Positions 5,969 through 35,136 are shown, counted from the stretch's first letter. The stretch is 64,000 bases of DNA from Pyrinomonas methylaliphatogenes (GCF_000820845.2 NZ_CBXV010000008.1:480705-544704); one strand, 5' to 3'. Notes: generated by a model from the sequence alone, not told the origin. Translations and numbers: made by a program.

Positions 5969-6571
5969 TTATTGAAGCTTCAACCGCTCGAAATCCAATT
6001 GTGCAGATGGACCGGTGTCGGCCTTCAGAATTCTCTCCATCTGATCGAGCGCCCAGCGATGCTCCTCGTCGGTCAACGCGGCGACGCAATCTTGCGGGAC
6101 GGCGAGGTGAAAATCGCGCATGTAAGCGTCGTTGGCCGTAAAAAGGACGCAGACGTTGGTCGCGATTCCCGTCAGGACGAGCGTTCTTGCGTGCAAATAA
6201 TCGAGCAGCACGTCGAGCGTGGTCGAAAAGAAACCGGAATGCTTCGGTTTGAGCACGAAGTAGTCGTCCGGCTCGGGAAGCAACCGCTGGACCAACGGGC
6301 GCCCGCGCACGCCATCGCGCAGACAATGTTCGATCAGATTGTTGAAGTTCGACTGCCACCGCCCGAAGTTGTCGTTGACGTAGATGGCCGGTACGCCGCA
6401 ACTCTTCGCGCGGCGCTTCAACTCCGCCGCGCGCGATGCCGCGGCGACGGCCCGCTCTAATATCTTCTCGCCCCCCTCAAACTCCAGATCGTTGATGAAA
6501 TCGATCAACAACAAGGCCACCGGCGAGCTATCGGGCGCGCTGCCGTGCAAGTCCTGATTTTTGGCCGGCAT
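5969..6571 (-). CDS. Isochorismatase-family cysteine hydrolase
   Basis: A 200-residue protein. The start was set at ATG 6571 because AGGGGAG lies 6-12 bases upstream; a longer frame opens at 6685. The family triad is visible: Asp in 'ALLLIDFINDLEF', Lys in 'FVLKPKHSGFFSTTLD' and the nucleophile Cys in 'LTGIATNVCVLFTANDAYMR'. Such enzymes hydrolyse amides or ureides (nicotinamide, isochorismate, ureidoacrylate); the substrate cannot be assigned from this context. It is probably cytosolic, with no signal peptide. It reads in the same direction as the DUF6766 gene downstream. Confidence 0.85.
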   Translation of the reverse strand: MPAKNQDLHGSAPDSSPVALLLIDFINDLEFEGGEKILERAVAAASRAAELKRRAKSCGVPAIYVNDNFGRWQSNFNNLIEHCLRDGVRGRPLVQRLLPEPDDYFVLKPKHSGFFSTTLDVLLDYLHARTLVLTGIATNVCVLFTANDAYMRDFHLAVPQDCVAALTDEEHRWALDQMERILKADTGPSAQLDFERLKLQ

Positions 6572-6913
6572 GTTCTCCCCTTGCCTCCCCAACGATGACT
6601 GATCTCTCGCGCCCATCATACAGAAGGCGTAAGGGATAGCAATCTCGACTGAGGTTGGAGCACTGAAAAGGTTTCTTTCTAACAAATCCTAGGCGCGAGG
6701 AGAAGCCATCCCGACCAAAGGGCCTATCTTCTGCGCGCCTCTTCGTGTTCAATGATCGCCGCGTTCAGTCATCCGGCTCTCAGTTCAACAAAGAGCGCTC
6801 ATCGAAGAAGCGGACAGGCTCAGCGGGCTCGCGCGGCTCGACGTGCTATCTCGACCGAATCGCATCCATCGACAAAAAGGCGCAAAGAGCCTCGACCCAC
6901 CGGGCCGAGCGCC

Positions 6914-7067: not shown

Positions 7068-7583
7068 TCAGTGGCTGGCGAGCCACTCATCGAAGACCTT
7101 CGCCTCTTCGAGCTTGCCGCTCCACCGAGCGCGGTTCTTGCCCGTCAGGGCGAGCACCATCGCTTGGTGCTGTCCAGCGCGGTCGCCCATGCGCTCGAAG
7201 TAGTTGTAGAGGCGGTCTATCTTGCGGACTGACTCGCGCGCCGCTTCGACCGATCTGAACGACAGGACGTTGCGGAAAAAGCGCGAGTAGACATTCTGTT
7301 CGCGCGCCGTCGTCGTGTAAAGGTCGAAGTAGCCGTCGAGCAGTCCGGCCGATTGCAGCACTTGCGCGACGTAGCTCGGGCGCGCTGGCGTTCGGCGCGC
7401 GATCTCGGCCACGTCCGTAATCCCTGCGCCGTACAGCTCCAGTATGCGCTCCTTTTTGGTCCGCTGAGCTGACTCTGCGGCGGATGTCTCTACCTCTTCC
7501 CTCAGCTCATCCTCTTCGTCGGCGTATTCCAATTCGATGGAGAGGGGTTTGAATTCGCGTTCAAGCAGATCTTCAGTCATCAT
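7068..7583 (-). CDS. Hypothetical HTH-containing protein of the Rad52 operon
   Basis: A 171-residue protein with an acidic N terminus (EYADEEDELREEVE). A probable helix-turn-helix at about residues 43-80 reads 'KKERILELYGAGITDVAEIA' followed by '...RPSYVAQVLQSAGLL', a pattern seen in small phage- and plasmid-type DNA-binding proteins. The C-terminal half is helical and basic with no recognised family. It starts 34 bp after the SWIM-Rad52 stop and shares its direction, so the two are probably one transcript that ends at the strong hairpin 6972-7003. Function unknown. Confidence 0.7.
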   Translation of the reverse strand: MMTEDLLEREFKPLSIELEYADEEDELREEVETSAAESAQRTKKERILELYGAGITDVAEIARRTPARPSYVAQVLQSAGLLDGYFDLYTTTAREQNVYSRFFRNVLSFRSVEAARESVRKIDRLYNYFERMGDRAGQHQAMVLALTGKNRARWSGKLEEAKVFDEWLASH

Positions 7584-7617
7584 CTTCTTTCGCTCCTTCT
7601 CGCGCTTGAAGCGTCTT

Positions 7618-8787
7618 TCAACCCGCGCGACGCACGCTCTCCGCAGCAGGCTTCATTTGCAGGCGCTTCAGGTGATCGATCAGACTCGATGCCGCACGCT
7701 TGGAAAGCTCTTCGACGCGGCATCCGAGTACGGCTAGACACTCTTCATCAGCGTCGATCCCCGCCTCACGCGCCAAAGCGCGGATCATGCCGATCTGCTT
7801 CGGCGTCACAAGGTCCGCGATCGTTTTGGCAAACGGGTCTCGAGGGAAATCGCCCGGCTGCGGCCCCGCTCCAACCCGCTCGATCACCTCCGATTCGCGC
7901 TGATAGAGTTCGCGCGCGATGCCGAATTTGATCGCCGCGCGCTTCAAGGCGTCGTGTTCTGCTTTCTTGATCCCGGTTTCGTTCTCCGCCGTTCCGGTCC
8001 CGACGCCTTCACGAGTGACGCCATCGATCGTGATGGCGGCGACGACGGCGACCATATCGCCGATCTGCGTGATCGAACGGACAGCGTGCGACCACGTCGG
8101 CGCCACGCGGTCGAGGATGTCGGCGACCGTGTGCCACTCGACATATTCGACCATGTGGACGTTGCCTTCCGGATCGCGCCATCCCTCGCGCTGCTTGATG
8201 AGCTTCGGATCGATCGGTTGCCGCAGAGCGCGCAGAGTCTGCACGAAAGAGAGCGGCACGACCGTCGCGCCCTGCTCGTCTTGACTCGCTGAAGCCTCAG
8301 CTTGAGCTTCCTCCACGCCCTTTTCCACAATGATCTCTTCTCTCTTCTTCCTCATCTCCGTCTCCTTTTCGTCTTCGTTTTCCGCAGGCGAACTGGGTTC
8401 GCCAGCCCGCCCCCGTTCGAAGCGCGCTTGGCGCTCCTCGGATGCGGTCTCGTTGCTGTCGGGCGCTTGTCCTAGATCGCGCCCCTCGTTTTGAACGCTT
8501 TTCACCTCGGCCTGAGATAAGAGCGCGTGTTTGACGGCGAGGATATGTTCACAGCGGAAGCTCGGATCCTGCGCCGATCGCTCCTCGTACTCAAGACACG
8601 AGCACCGGACCTTCCCACCCTCATCGCGCCAAACCTCATACGAAGTCCGTCGCCCGCGCAAAGAGGGCGTTTGGACGCGAAACCGATCGCCATCGCGCGT
8701 TACCAGCCCCATCGCGACGAGCCCGCGCGCGCGCTTTTCCCGCATGATCGCTTCCCTATCAGCCTTATTTGCCGTCCCTGCCGCCAT
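7618..8787 (-). CDS. SWIM zinc-finger / Rad52-family single-strand annealing protein
   Basis: 389 residues from ATG 8787, chosen because AAAGGAGG sits 9 bases upstream. Residues 50-85 carry a SWIM-type zinc finger: C62-x-C64 ... C79-x-H81. A low-complexity acidic linker (about 90-175) follows. The Rad52/Rad22-type domain covers about 175-300, recognisable from 'GNVHMVEYVEWHTVADILD', 'VAAITIDGV(T)REGVGTG' and 'KKAEHDALKRAAIKFGIAREL'. A C-terminal helical module begins 'LVTPKQIGMIRALAREAGID', as found at the ends of some phage-type recombinases. Rad52-family proteins anneal single-stranded DNA; DdrA of Deinococcus belongs to this family. The SWIM-Rad52 fusion is clear in sequence; a repair or phage-type recombination role is inference. 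Confidence 0.85.
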   Translation of the reverse strand: MAAGTANKADREAIMREKRARGLVAMGLVTRDGDRFRVQTPSLRGRRTSYEVWRDEGGKVRCSCLEYEERSAQDPSFRCEHILAVKHALLSQAEVKSVQNEGRDLGQAPDSNETASEERQARFERGRAGEPSSPAENEDEKETEMRKKREEIIVEKGVEEAQAEASASQDEQGATVVPLSFVQTLRALRQPIDPKLIKQREGWRDPEGNVHMVEYVEWHTVADILDRVAPTWSHAVRSITQIGDMVAVVAAITIDGVTREGVGTGTAENETGIKKAEHDALKRAAIKFGIARELYQRESEVIERVGAGPQPGDFPRDPFAKTIADLVTPKQIGMIRALAREAGIDADEECLAVLGCRVEELSKRAASSLIDHLKRLQMKPAAESVRRAG

Positions 8788-8810
8788 CGTTCCACGCCTC
8801 CTTTCCACTT

Positions 8811-8972
8811 TCAAGCGGCGCGCTCCGTCTCCGAACGCGCCCGTTCGACCATCTCACGCAACCGACGCTCAAGGTCCCCGACGCGCGCTTCCAATTCAGC
8901 GACGCGACGCCCTTGGCGATGAAGCGTCTTGAAGAGGGTATCGAACGTCTCCCAAATGTATTCGTTGCTCAC
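8811..8972 (-). CDS. 53-residue coiled-coil protein
   Basis: A small frame starting with GTG at 8972 and ending at 8811, with GGGAGG 7-12 bases upstream of the start. It begins VSNEYIWETFDTLFKT, then a continuous heptad-like helix (RRVAELEARVGDLERRLREM) rich in R, E and L. It is the first gene of the leftward transcript and its stop lies 23 bp before the SWIM-Rad52 start. The good ribosome site, tight spacing and regular heptads argue that it is real. It may be an oligomerisation or adaptor peptide; no family was recognised. Confidence 0.65.
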   Translation of the reverse strand: MSNEYIWETFDTLFKTLHRQGRRVAELEARVGDLERRLREMVERARSETERAA

Positions 8973-9027
8973 CTTCGCCCTCCCTTCACTTCTACGGACG
9001 ATCCGCCGTCCGTTTCATGCACGAAAC

Positions 9028-9100
9028 AATGTACCACAAATCTCCGGTCGTTGCAAGCGCGAAACTTAATCTTGCAAATGGGAAGAAGGTGTGCTATGTT
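9028..9100. promoter_or_regulatory. Symmetric divergent promoters with inverted-repeat operator
   Basis: The hexamer TTGCAA, itself a palindrome, occurs at 9051-9056 and 9072-9077 inside the perfect inverted repeat TTGCAAG (9051-9057) / CTTGCAA (9071-9077). Rightward: -35 TTGCAA 9072-9077, 17-nt spacer, -10 TATGTT 9095-9100, toward the XRE gene. Leftward: -35 TTGCAA (9056-9051), 17-nt spacer, -10 TACATT (complement of 9028-9033), toward the coiled-coil/Rad52 genes. A second dyad, GTTTC-atgcac-GAAAC (9012-9027), lies just beyond the leftward -10. The layout suggests that one repressor, most simply the XRE protein, controls both directions. Confidence 0.65.
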
Positions 9101-9146
9101 CCCCGACGTGGCGGGAAGAGATCCCGCCGCAAAGGAGGCAACGGAT

Positions 9147-9572
9147 ATGGCGCGATCGACATCGACGAAGAGTTTGATCAACACGCTCGAACTCGGACGG
9201 GCGATCCGACGTAAACGCGAAGAGCTCGGCTTGAGCTTGCGCGATGTGGCCAACGAAACCGGAGTTTCAGCTTCGACCTTGTCGCGGATCGAAAACGGCA
9301 CGGGCAAACCCGATACCGAAAGCATCGCGCGACTCAGCAAATGGTTGAACATGCCGGTCGAGCGCATCATCCTGGGCGAGGGAGCCGCCCCCGTGGTCTA
9401 TTTCCCACAGGAAGCGACGCCCGATATCGTTGAGGCTCATCTGCGCGCGGATCGCAATCTGACGCCGGAGACGGCGCAGGCGCTCGCCGAGCTATTCCGC
9501 GTCGCCTATGCTCAGTTCAGCAACCAAGCGGCGCGAAGCAACGAGCGTCCGTCGCGCAAGCGCAACCGGTGA
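9147..9572 (+). CDS. XRE-family transcriptional repressor (DdrO/ImmR-like)
   Basis: 141 residues from ATG 9147, chosen because AAAGGAGG is at 9131-9138; an upstream in-frame extension to 8769 is unlikely. Residues about 17-75 form an HTH_3 domain ('REELGLSLRDVANETGVSAS', 'TLSRIENGTGKPDTESIARL'). The C-terminal part ('LTPETAQALAELFRVAYAQF') is helical. This size and layout match XRE repressors that are cleaved or inactivated by ImmA/IrrE-type proteins, such as ImmR and DdrO. The next gene encodes an ImmA/IrrE-like protein, which fits. Binding to the inverted repeat at 9051-9077 is a direct prediction. Confidence 0.88.
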   Translation: MARSTSTKSLINTLELGRAIRRKREELGLSLRDVANETGVSASTLSRIENGTGKPDTESIARLSKWLNMPVERIILGEGAAPVVYFPQEATPDIVEAHLRADRNLTPETAQALAELFRVAYAQFSNQAARSNERPSRKRNR

Positions 9573-9693
9573 AGTTGATAGTTTTGAAGAAGCTTGGTCG
9601 CGTCAAACGGGCGCGGCCAGGCTCATAGCGCGTCCCACCCATTTCGTCACACATCGGACCGCGACAGCCTTCGCCGCCCGAGGTCACGTGTCT

Positions 9694-9699
9694 TATAAT
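9694..9699 (+). promoter_or_regulatory. -10 box (TATAAT) only 7 nt before a GTG start; possible leaderless transcript
   Basis: A consensus TATAAT at 9694-9699 is followed by the GTG start of the next gene at 9707, where a transcript from this box would begin. No ribosome-binding site fits between them. The -35 region is weak, and no extended -10 TG is present. Confidence 0.45.
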
Positions 9700-9706
9700 T
9701 TCCCGC

Positions 9707-10339
9707 GTGATAGGGGCAGCTTTACCACCCACGAGCAAGGGCCGATTTTACGAGCTGCGTGCGCTCAGCCTGCGCGAGTTCGCGGGCTTGCGCCATCCCG
9801 AAGAACCGCTCGACCCGTTCGCGCTGGCGCGCTTCGCCAAACTGCTGGTCGTCGATTTCGACCAGATCGAGGGCCTTTCGCCGCAGGCGCGCGCCCATCT
9901 GCTCGGAGAGGGGGCTGAAGCTTGGTCCGGCGGGGCGTGTTCGCGTCCACTTCCGAACGGGTGGCGTTTGATCATCCTGAACCCGACGCACGGCCCGCAG
10001 AGGAACAACGCGACGCTGATGGAGGAGGTCTGTCACGTCTTTCTGGGCCATAAAGCCAATCGCTTGGCGGTCGTCAACGAAAGCAATGGGCAGCAGATCA
10101 TCGCGCGCGATTACAATCCGCAGGATGAGGAAGCGGCCTACGCCGTCGGCGCGGCGGCGCTCGTTCCCTTTGCGGCGCTTCGCCGCTTCGTGCGCGATGG
10201 GCTCTCGATCTCAAGGATCGCGCGCCATTTCAACGTCAGTCGCGAGTTGGTCGAGTATCGTTTGAAGGTCACGCGACTGTGGGCCGAATATCGCGCGCGC
10301 CAAGCGAAGGAGGCCCCGTCTGAACCACAGCCACGCTAG
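9707..10339 (+). CDS. ImmA/IrrE-like protein with altered zinc motif
   Basis: 210 residues from GTG 9707. The region 'NNATLMEEVCHVFLGH' aligns by eye with the HExxH helix of the ImmA/IrrE (DUF955) family, followed about 30 residues later by 'DEEAAYAVGAAALVP', which carries the usual third acidic ligand. The first histidine of HExxH is glutamate here (E-E-V-C-H), while a nearby LGH offers another histidine. Family members cleave XRE repressors after a stress or SOS-like signal. A C-terminal helix-turn-helix-like stretch ('SISRIARHFNVSRELVEYRL') is also family-typical. It lies 134 bp after the XRE gene and 8 bp before the primase gene. Whether it is proteolytic is uncertain given the ligand change. 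Confidence 0.8.
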   Translation: MIGAALPPTSKGRFYELRALSLREFAGLRHPEEPLDPFALARFAKLLVVDFDQIEGLSPQARAHLLGEGAEAWSGGACSRPLPNGWRLIILNPTHGPQRNNATLMEEVCHVFLGHKANRLAVVNESNGQQIIARDYNPQDEEAAYAVGAAALVPFAALRRFVRDGLSISRIARHFNVSRELVEYRLKVTRLWAEYRARQAKEAPSEPQPR

Positions 10340-10347
10340 CCGGAAAC

Positions 10348-11454
10348 ATGGCGCGCCCGAAAGACAACGCGAAGCGATGGCCCGAATTGCGCGATGCCAT
10401 TAAGAGCCGTTTGAATTACAAGGAGTTCTTTCTCCGCTACTGTCCTGCGGCCCGCATCTCAGGCATGCGACTTTACTCGCGCTGCCCGATCCCGTCGCAC
10501 AATCATAGCGGTCTGGGGCGCCCAAGCCTTTCGGTCGATCTCGCGCGCGGCCTCTTTCATTGCTTCTCGCGCGGCGAAGGCGGCGATGCCATCAGGTTTT
10601 ATGAACTCATGCACAACCTCTCATTCGCCGAGGCGGTGCGCGAACTATCGCGCGATCTCGGGCTCAGCGAGCGACAGATGCCGCTCGCCTTTCGCGCCGC
10701 CCCCGATGCCGATTCGGAGGCGCTCGAACCGCTCGACGCTGAGCGGTTGGCAGCGATCTGCGAAACGTTCCTCGCCTTCTGCCGAGAGGAGGAGCAAACG
10801 GCGGGGCTCAATTACCTGATGCGGCGCGGGATCGATCCGGAGACGGCGCAGCGTGCAGGCGTCGTCTATTTTCCGCGTCGCGCATATCGGCGCGTGATGC
10901 AGAGGCTGCGCGAGGCCTTCGCGCTTGAAGAGTTACAGCGAAGCGGCCTTTTCAACAGCCGCGCTCATCTGACCTTCTATCTACATCGGCTGCTCTTTCC
11001 CTTCTACGTCAACCGCCGCCCGCGTTATCTGCAAGCGCGAGCGACGGCCCCTGGAGTTGAGCCGCGCTGGCACAACATGCGCGGCTCGGTTCCGGCGCTC
11101 TACAACGTCGACCTTTTAAACGAGTTGCCATCTGGCGCGCTCATCTACCTCGTCGAAGGTTTCACGGACACTTTGACGCTGCTCACGCATGGGTTTCCCG
11201 CCGTGGGGTTGGTCGGCGCGGGCGGTTTGAAGGAGGAGTGGATCGCTCAACTCGCCCGCTTCCGCGTCGTCGCCGCGTTCGACCCTGACGAAGCGGGCAG
11301 GCGCGCCGCCGCGCGTTATGCGGAGATGTTCCGAGCGCACGGATCGACCTTGGCGCGCATCGAACTACCGCTCGACGTCAATGACTTTTTCCGCCAGCGC
11401 CCATCTGCGGCGCTGGAATTGTCGCTGCTCACCGAAGCGGCGCTGGAGGCGTGA
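10348..11454 (+). CDS. DnaG-type primase-like protein (CHC2 + Toprim), short form
   Basis: 368 residues, starting 8 bp after the ImmA-like stop. A CHC2-like zinc domain lies at about residues 29-90: 'RCPIPSHNHSG' ... 'LFHCFSRGEGGDAIRFYE'. Canonical CHC2 reads CFxCG; here the fourth ligand is Arg (C-F-S-R-G). A core linker is followed by a Toprim domain (about residues 255-345) with the glutamate in 'IYLVEGFTDTLTLL' and the DxD pair in 'VAAFDPDEAGRRAA'. It lacks the C-terminal helicase-binding domain of chromosomal DnaG (about 600 residues), so it looks like an element-type primase. The chromosome should carry a separate dnaG. Replication or repair synthesis for the module is the likely role. 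Confidence 0.85.
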   Translation: MARPKDNAKRWPELRDAIKSRLNYKEFFLRYCPAARISGMRLYSRCPIPSHNHSGLGRPSLSVDLARGLFHCFSRGEGGDAIRFYELMHNLSFAEAVRELSRDLGLSERQMPLAFRAAPDADSEALEPLDAERLAAICETFLAFCREEEQTAGLNYLMRRGIDPETAQRAGVVYFPRRAYRRVMQRLREAFALEELQRSGLFNSRAHLTFYLHRLLFPFYVNRRPRYLQARATAPGVEPRWHNMRGSVPALYNVDLLNELPSGALIYLVEGFTDTLTLLTHGFPAVGLVGAGGLKEEWIAQLARFRVVAAFDPDEAGRRAAARYAEMFRAHGSTLARIELPLDVNDFFRQRPSAALELSLLTEAALEA

Positions 11455-11516: not shown

Positions 11517-12803
11517 ATGGCGGAAGAGAATCAAAAATCGGCAACGGCGGAACTAAGCCTCGTCGATAAACTCCGTTTGCTTCTCGACATCACGAAGAAG
11601 ATAAGCCGTTCGCTCGATGTCAACGAAGTGCTCAATCTCGTGATGGACACGCTCGGCTCACTGGTCCACTATGATGCGGCGGGCATCTACATCATCGAGC
11701 GCGACGGGGCGCGCGCGGCGAACGGCGAGATGATCTTTCACGCCGAATCCGTGCGCGGATATGATATCGAAGAGTTGACCGAACTGCGCCTTAAGGCGGG
11801 CGAAGGTTTAGTCGGCTACGTCGTGCAGACTGGAGAACCGGTCATCTCTCCGGACGTGCGAACAGATCCGCGCTACATCAACGCGCGCGAACGGACCCGT
11901 TCGGAGATGGTCGCGCCGATCATCTCGAACGATGAGGTGATCGGGGTCTTCGATCTCGAGAGCGATCAGCCGAACGCCTACACGGAGGATGATCTTCAGG
12001 TCCTGATGCTGCTCGCTTCGCAAGTCGCCATCATCATCGAGAAGGCGATGTTGCATCAGGAGTTGATCAGGAAGCGGCAGCTCGAAGCGCAACTTGAGGT
12101 CGCGCGCCAGGTGCAGCTTGCGCTTCTGCCGTCGAGGCATCCGCAGATCGAGGGCTTCGATATCAGCGCATACAACTTCTCGTCCGAGCATGTTTCCGGC
12201 GACTACTATGATTTCGTCCGCATCTACGACGACCAACTCGGTCTTGTGATCGCCGACGCTTCGGGACGCGGCATGCCGGCGGCGCTTCTCATGGCTTTCC
12301 TGCGCGCTTCGCTCCGCTCCGCGATACATGTCGGCTACGCGCCCAACGTTTCGATGGCGAAGGTCAACTCTCTGCTCTGCGAATCGACCGAGGAGAATCA
12401 GTTCGTGACCGCCTTCTACGGCGTGCTCGATGCGACGAACAAAACGCTCGCCTATGCGAACGCGGGGCACAATCCGCCGTTGCTCCTCGACGTCGATGGT
12501 TCGGCTCGGTTCATCGAGCGCGGCGATTTTCCGCTCGGCATGTTCGACAGCGCGCGCTACTACGAATATTACCTGAGCATCCTGCCGGGCCAGATCTTCG
12601 TGCTCTACACCGACGGGTTGACCGAAGCGACCAACGACGCGGGCGAGGAGTACGGGCGCGAGCGGCTGGCCCAGACAGTGAGCCGTGAACGGGATCGCAA
12701 GGCGCGCGATCTGATCGACGCGATCTACGGCGATGTTCTAGAGTGGACCAACGGGCGCGGCGCTGACGATGACATAACGCTGATCGTCATCAAAGCGCTC
12801 TGA
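11517..12803 (+). CDS. GAF-domain SpoIIE/RsbU-type serine phosphatase
   Basis: 428 residues. A short N-terminal helix is followed by a GAF domain (about residues 15-175; 'VLNLVMDTLGSLVHYDAAGI', 'APIISNDEVIGVFDLESDQ'). A linker 'LEAQLEVARQVQLALLPSRH' leads to a PP2C-like SpoIIE domain (about 215-425) with metal-binding acids in 'SGDYYDFVRI', 'VIADASGRGMPAALLM' and 'RGADDDITLIVI'. Such proteins dephosphorylate anti-anti-sigma (STAS) proteins in partner-switching stress pathways; no STAS or RsbW partner is seen in this window. It is cytosolic, and 12 bp separate it from the rpiB-like gene. Confidence 0.9.
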   Translation: MAEENQKSATAELSLVDKLRLLLDITKKISRSLDVNEVLNLVMDTLGSLVHYDAAGIYIIERDGARAANGEMIFHAESVRGYDIEELTELRLKAGEGLVGYVVQTGEPVISPDVRTDPRYINARERTRSEMVAPIISNDEVIGVFDLESDQPNAYTEDDLQVLMLLASQVAIIIEKAMLHQELIRKRQLEAQLEVARQVQLALLPSRHPQIEGFDISAYNFSSEHVSGDYYDFVRIYDDQLGLVIADASGRGMPAALLMAFLRASLRSAIHVGYAPNVSMAKVNSLLCESTEENQFVTAFYGVLDATNKTLAYANAGHNPPLLLDVDGSARFIERGDFPLGMFDSARYYEYYLSILPGQIFVLYTDGLTEATNDAGEEYGRERLAQTVSRERDRKARDLIDAIYGDVLEWTNGRGADDDITLIVIKAL

Positions 12804-34515: not shown

Positions 34516-35136
34516 TTAACTCGCCGAACGCAGCAGACCGCGGAAGATGCCTTGAATCGAAACGCGCACGGCAGGCAAGCGCAGCGGGGTAAGTTGCGAA
34601 TTCGCTGGGCGCAATTCGATCTCGTCCCCGAGACGATAGAATCGCTTCAACGTAACGCGATCGCCATCTATGAGCGCGACGACGATCTCGCCATCGCAAG
34701 CTTCAGTCCGATTCTCGATGATCGCGATATCGCCATCGCAGATGTGCTCGTCGATCATCGAATCGCCGACCACGCGCAAGGCGTAAACGTTCTCGGCGCG
34801 CACGCGCCCTAAGAGGAATCGAGGCACAGGGATCGTCTCAGCGTCGATGATCGCATCCATCGGCAGACCGGCGGCGATGCGACCGAGCAGAGGGATCTCG
34901 CACCATCCATTTGCATCCCCTTCCGCAACCACCCGCAAAATGAATCCGCTGCTTTCGCGCCGGCGCGCGATCAGACCGCGCCGCTCGAGCGCTTGGATGT
35001 GCTTGGCGACGGTCGCTTTCGAGGAGATGCCGAAATGGCGCGCGATCTGCGCATAGGAGGGTTCGTAACCATGCCGCTCGATGAAACCCGCGATGTAGTC
35101 GAGTATCTCCTTCTGTCGGCGCGTTCGCGGTCGCAT
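34516..35136 (-). CDS. lexA: LexA SOS repressor
   Basis: 206 residues. N-terminal winged helix 'RRQKEILDYIAGFIERHGYE' and 'PSYAQIARHFGISSKATVAK'. Self-cleavage site A89-G90 in 'GRIAAGLPM'; catalytic S126 in 'VVGDSMIDEH' and K164 in 'DGDRVTLKRF'. It represses DNA-damage genes and is cleaved with RecA-ssDNA. A promoter TTGACG-N18-TAGAAT lies just upstream. The LexA box of this phylum cannot be stated from the sequence alone. Confidence 0.95.
   Translation of the reverse strand: MRPRTRRQKEILDYIAGFIERHGYEPSYAQIARHFGISSKATVAKHIQALERRGLIARRRESSGFILRVVAEGDANGWCEIPLLGRIAAGLPMDAIIDAETIPVPRFLLGRVRAENVYALRVVGDSMIDEHICDGDIAIIENRTEACDGEIVVALIDGDRVTLKRFYRLGDEIELRPANSQLTPLRLPAVRVSIQGIFRGLLRSAS

Follow-up and report, generated by a model that had tools for sequence, protein, structure and literature searches.

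In Deinococcus, the DdrO/IrrE system comprises a repressor that regulates its own gene and an irrE gene that lies outside the regulon, and recA is not controlled by LexA (PMC8072749, PMC5552922). A common palindrome is located upstream of recA, ruvB, uvrB, ddrA (Rad52 family), a SWIM gene and a DinB-family gene (PMC8072749, PMC5552922), and both PprI and CapP are activated by single-stranded DNA (ssDNA) (PMC10904395). Repair regulons under DdrO/IrrE control have been placed in the Deinococcus/Thermus phylum, and related pairs elsewhere are often carried by mobile elements (PMC8072749); our literature search found no such regulon described for Acidobacteriota. Here, we analyzed a 64,000-nucleotide stretch (hereafter the window; NZ_CBXV010000008.1:480705-544704) from the 3.79-Mb genome of Pyrinomonas methylaliphatogenes (family Pyrinomonadaceae, class Blastocatellia, phylum Acidobacteriota). 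At positions 7068-11454 it contains a locus encoding an XRE-family regulator, an IrrE-like protein and a Rad52-type protein, which probably acts as the control centre for a DNA-damage regulon that is independent of LexA.

The preliminary description of this DNA had six genes facing away from one divergent control region, and their coordinates and strands proved correct:

7068-7583, minus strand: helix-turn-helix (HTH)-like protein (P0005), family unknown, with no family match in domain searches
7618-8787, minus strand: SWIM-like and Rad52/Erf-type single-strand annealing protein of 389 amino acids (aa), assigned from Pfam and PHROG (RAD52 below)
8814-8972, minus strand: 53-aa coiled-coil open reading frame (ORF) with a GTG start, the first gene of the leftward operon
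9147-9572, plus strand: XRE-family regulator of 141 aa, the proposed regulator of the operator (HTH_3, 5e-17)
9707-10339, plus strand: IrrE/M78-fold protein of 210 aa with an EExxH motif, a proposed antirepressor or sensor (Peptidase_M78, 5e-12)
10348-11454, plus strand: CHC2-Toprim primase-like protein of 368 aa, a clade-specific addition

The Rad52, HTH_3, M78 and primase domains each exceed their own Pfam cut-off. The 389-aa protein belongs to the Rad52 family by its Rad52_Rad22 domain (PF04098; 5e-10, 39.9 bits versus a cut-off of 20.3) and by an Erf-like PHROG match (8e-9); its SWIM match is weak (0.017) and falls under the cut-off. The HTH-like gene accompanies RAD52 in the same order in other families, and paralogs of its product encoded elsewhere have an operator of their own.

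The operator is a 16-bp palindrome with the consensus GTTkCAnnnnTGmAAC, and GTTTCATnnnTGAAAC was found between XRE and RAD52. In genus g23, a first dyad search returned operator fragments, and widening the consensus to GTTkCA revealed full sites. With the widened consensus, two palindrome copies spaced by exactly 38 bp were present in most RAD52-bearing genomes, and the same pair occurs in other Blastocatellia families. The control region of the window contains the following elements, the promoters being read by eye:

9012-9027, unstranded: operator O1, GTTTCATGCACGAAAC, which adjoins the predicted leftward -10 and covers the likely start site
9050-9065, unstranded: operator O2, GTTGCAAGCGCGAAAC, 38 bp from O1
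9028-9033, minus strand: predicted -10 (TACATT) of the leftward (RAD52) promoter
9072-9100, plus strand: predicted rightward (XRE) promoter, with -35 TTGCAA (9072-9077), a 17-bp spacer and -10 TATGTT (9095-9100)

O2 overlaps the leftward -35 (TTGCAA, 9051-9056) and sits immediately upstream of the rightward -35. Four perfect operators occupy an XRE/RAD52 control region of another family, f7 (L458:4596-4699).

Promoters were scored as carrying a site when at least 11 of 12 consensus positions matched, with shuffled sequences providing the expectation. Sites were present in 49 of 60 XRE promoters (0.25 in shuffles) and in 28 of 30 recA promoters (0.1 in shuffles), and in 0 of 20 promoters of separately located irrE genes. 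The recA site of the window's own genome, GTTTCATGTATAAAAC, lies approximately 80 bp upstream of the recA ORF. A genome-wide scan with the pattern GTTTCATnnnYGAAAC, controlled by the reversed pattern, detected several sites in many genomes, far above the control. Among 94 inspected site rows, at least 61 are upstream of XRE/RAD52, repair genes or recurring target families, including recA (13), a Sak4-like AAA_24 ATPase whose match is under the Pfam cut-off (9), ruvB (8), topoisomerase IB with an HTH paralog (7), solo RAD52 (6) and a 140-aa family without assigned function (5), together with ruvA and uvrB; some of these targets depend on crude ORF calling. The remaining rows, 11 within ORFs and about 22 without an assigned target, make up about a third, and such sites, within ORFs or near unrelated genes, were taken as chance occurrences or as lacking a target. 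A family of 133-148 aa proteins, whose genes immediately follow the operator in several genomes (L194:2638-3039, L224:2592-3020, L236:1182-1628), is a candidate new damage-response protein; the one member scanned, that of L194, had no Pfam match.

The position of the site relative to the promoter, also read by eye, differs among targets. It lies over the start site at RAD52, ruvA and imuA, in the -35/-10 spacer at uvrB and the 140-aa family, on the -35 at ruvB and the DinB gene, and immediately upstream of the -35 at recA and XRE itself. Because start, spacer or -35 is covered in the first seven, repression fits them; at recA and the XRE gene's own promoter, where the site is only upstream of the -35, activation is as possible as weak repression.

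Conservation was assessed in 119 genomes of the order (Pyrinomonadaceae). Strong homologs of the XRE protein were found in approximately 108 genomes (112 when weak HTH-only matches are counted), those of the IrrE-like protein in 108 and those of RAD52 in 92; this contradicts the possibility, raised in the preliminary description, that the module is confined to single genomes. The inspected loci follow three arrangements. In arrangement A, that of the window, RAD52 is divergent from XRE, with IrrE and the primase downstream; in arrangement B, RAD52 and XRE are divergent and IrrE is located elsewhere; arrangement C, from genera without RAD52, is an XRE-IrrE operon. RAD52 and XRE were divergent in every inspected case having both. 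The gene order was also sought in other Blastocatellia, and two further families (f2 and f7) have the complete HTH-RAD52 / XRE-IrrE order without the primase. The grouping of these genes is far beyond chance, given that it is found again in many genera and in two other families. In a 396-genome sample of the phylum, searched at an E-value of 1e-15, the XRE family was present in all 28 members of the Pyrinomonadaceae family, in 7 of 19 other members of the class and in 0 of approximately 349 genomes from other classes. Pairwise distances of XRE and IrrE track the recA distances (Mantel r 0.69 and 0.66, with a permuted maximum of 0.39). These sequence comparisons show conservation and mostly vertical inheritance of XRE, of the RAD52 gene divergent from it and of the IrrE-like gene.

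We propose that an XRE dimer binds the palindrome and would repress most targets from sites that overlap the -35, the spacer, the -10 or the start site. DNA damage, perhaps via ssDNA as with PprI and CapP, would trigger the IrrE-like protein, which would in turn inactivate the XRE regulator through cleavage or binding. RAD52, recA and the remaining regulon would then be switched on, and fresh XRE synthesis would reset the system. It is very likely that XRE binds the operator and likely that it acts mainly as a repressor. Linkage and fold make it likely that the IrrE-like protein relieves this repression, and we infer from the identity of the targets that DNA damage is the signal. A stand-alone repair switch, as had been suggested from the initial inspection, is the best reading of a locus that is conserved, tracks recA and shares its operator with recA and other repair genes.

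Several observations weigh against this proposal. The window's own genome has good sites only at this locus and at recA: a degenerate pattern gives five matches, two at XRE, one at recA and two others that are not above control, one of them inside an ORF. A clear site is often missing from the XRE promoters of RAD52-less genera. The C-terminal domain of XRE had no match in a sequence search of the PDB, and the XRE model (predicted template modelling score, pTM, 0.43) is weak in this domain. A second factor could bind the palindrome. Finally, all 51 aligned homologs of the IrrE-like protein have EExxH rather than HExxH, the first zinc-ligand His being replaced by Glu, and proteolysis may have been lost.

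The AlphaFold model of the IrrE-like protein (predicted local distance difference test, pLDDT, 83; pTM 0.80) adopts the M78/IrrE fold. Its structural matches are CapP (7t5t, Z 11.9), a group of M. tuberculosis regulator entries (10.1-10.7) and, each aligned across about 145 residues, D. geothermalis PprI (10.0) and D. deserti IrrE (9.1-9.3); no structure outside these groups exceeds Z 9, and the next match scores 4.5. The protein lacks the GAF-like domain, its model of 210 aa stopping after HTH-like helices, and the IrrE chains compared have 291-301 residues. PADLOC gave a capP match of 0.0015 for the IrrE-like protein and a capH match of 3e-8 covering the HTH part only. For the XRE protein, Foldseek placed DdrO chains in its top rows, with good alignment over the HTH alone.

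A serious possibility, although we do not favor it outright, is a variant compatible with the proposed switch, in which XRE runs the regulon and the IrrE-like protein is a non-protease antirepressor that senses a ligand or ssDNA and acts by binding. A precedent is Rir of S. thermophilus, which acts without cleavage of its repressor (PMC7907104). The invariant EExxH favors this variant, and the motif also occurs in natural single-chain XRE-M78 fusions from Sulfitobacter, Nostoc and Rhizobium (L468, L469, L471), in which cleavage in trans is unnecessary; the fusions support a functional partnership and suggest that action without cleavage is possible. Against it, the motif (TLMEE[IV]xH) retains the catalytic Glu and the second His, and an EE.AY segment further downstream hardly varies, which is more than a dead enzyme needs; moreover, Glu is able to bind metal. 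Unfused relatives, from Acidiphilium, Synechocystis and Arthrobacter, carry the HExxH form of the motif. One of the fusions, on a Nostoc plasmid, adjoins a SAVED-domain gene. On plasmids of Acidiphilium and Synechocystis, HExxH-type XRE-M78 pairs are divergent from multiubiquitin/E2/ThiF operons (L467:1086-1995, L470:1076-2028), which suggests damage-responsive control of ubiquitin-like defence operons.

The window also contains a lexA gene:

34516-35136, minus strand: lexA

The palindrome might be a LexA (SOS) box, with the XRE and IrrE genes as ordinary members of the SOS regulon; lexA was detected in 97 of the 119 genomes, that of the window included, and recA, ruvAB and uvrB are classic SOS genes. 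We consider this improbable. Although LexA normally controls its own gene, the operator was found in 0 of 30 lexA promoters, even at 10 of 12 positions, and the promoter of the window's lexA has neither a GTTkCA operator nor an obvious palindrome. The sites do not depend on the lexA gene either: five high-completeness genomes without detected lexA contain the exact wide consensus three to six times each, versus 0 in the control, at XRE/RAD52, recA, an imuA-like gene and a DinB-superfamily gene, although not at all of these in each genome; in a further lineage, rmuC is preceded by a site. Instead of the operator, the lexA promoters of two genera (g24 and g29; L248-L263, related loci) have in common a TTCGATAATATTCG-like repeat that may be a LexA box apart from the XRE regulon. 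The lexA promoters and the genomes without detected lexA led us to reject the LexA-box identity. A broader proposal, which we advance tentatively and would not yet expect to hold in full, is that the main DNA-damage regulon of Blastocatellia, recA included, is controlled by XRE and not by LexA and relieved by a partner of M78 fold that has ceased to be a conventional HExxH protease, and that some lineages have lost lexA, with its mutagenesis gene imuA now under the XRE operator.

The least probable explanation is that a degenerate prophage or integrative element by chance carries the four gene types (XRE, M78, Rad52 and primase). Members of these families are often encountered on phages and integrative elements, COG2856/XRE pairs are frequently mobile (PMC8072749) and the Rad52 and primase proteins have PHROG matches. 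This alternative, kept open in the preliminary description, was nevertheless rejected on the conservation, shared gene order and recA-like divergence described above, on the lack of any IrrE relative in 50,697 phages and on XRE matches in viral contigs that reach the HTH level only; moreover, neither an integrase nor a structural gene was seen at the locus. By sequence, the locus is a vertically inherited chromosomal core rather than the remnant of an element.

The primase and the 53-aa coiled-coil ORF are accessory to the proposed switch. The locus-type primase, initially counted as part of the module, is a clade-specific extra and was rejected as a core component: a close homolog occurs in 24 of the 119 genomes, all of one clade, and matches otherwise are just of the housekeeping DnaG type. 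Its top PADLOC match is RTasDnaG-like (1e-55), a DnaG-like partner of defence reverse transcriptases. The window contains no tRNA genes, and the locus is flanked by two ordinary genes:

5969-6685: isochorismatase gene
11517-12803: GAF-SpoIIE gene

If the proposed regulon is real, XRE/M78 pairs would have become master regulators of core repair more than once, here in a second, unrelated phylum, and these soil bacteria would gain a defined damage response. The system would also offer a testable case of a regulator capturing LexA targets, several genomes in which lexA was not detected having retained sites, and the EExxH change would allow a direct test of whether IrrE-like proteins act by cleavage or by binding.

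Among known systems, DdiA of Myxococcus xanthus is, by description, an XRE regulator of a LexA-independent DNA-damage response with an HTH and C-terminal dimerisation helices; it regulates dnaE2 and recX, and the part of the source available describes no M78 partner (PMC12288472). The LexA/RecA SOS response has target genes similar to those of the XRE palindrome, but the palindrome is missing from lexA promoters and persists where lexA was not found. In CapH/CapP of the cyclic oligonucleotide-based antiphage signalling system (CBASS), and in the XRE-M78 pairs beside ubiquitin-like operons, XRE likewise adjoins M78 and is divergent from the controlled operon; CapP, the top structural match of the IrrE-like model, is linked to DNA damage and ssDNA (PMC10904395). 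No CBASS genes were present among the genes read at the locus. Pairs of the CapH/CapP type control one local defence operon, whereas the Pyrinomonadaceae sites are found at many core repair genes, and the unfused plasmid pairs have HExxH in place of EExxH.

The likeness to DdrO/IrrE(PprI), proposed in the preliminary description, holds for the XRE protein, the M78 fold and a shared palindrome, and fails for HExxH and the GAF-like domain. Both systems combine an XRE repressor that has sites at its own promoter with an M78-fold partner, place the palindrome at recA, ruvB, uvrB, Rad52-family, SWIM and DinB-family genes, run beside LexA, leave stand-alone irrE without an operator, and have paired sites at the Rad52-family gene. 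Unlike DdrO/IrrE, the Pyrinomonas system belongs to another phylum, uses its own operator, often has XRE and IrrE in one operon, fuses SWIM-like and Rad52 parts in one protein, and has an XRE protein whose C-terminal domain does not match DdrO in sequence. Overall, it resembles DdrO/IrrE in anatomy and target choice and is a candidate member of that family.

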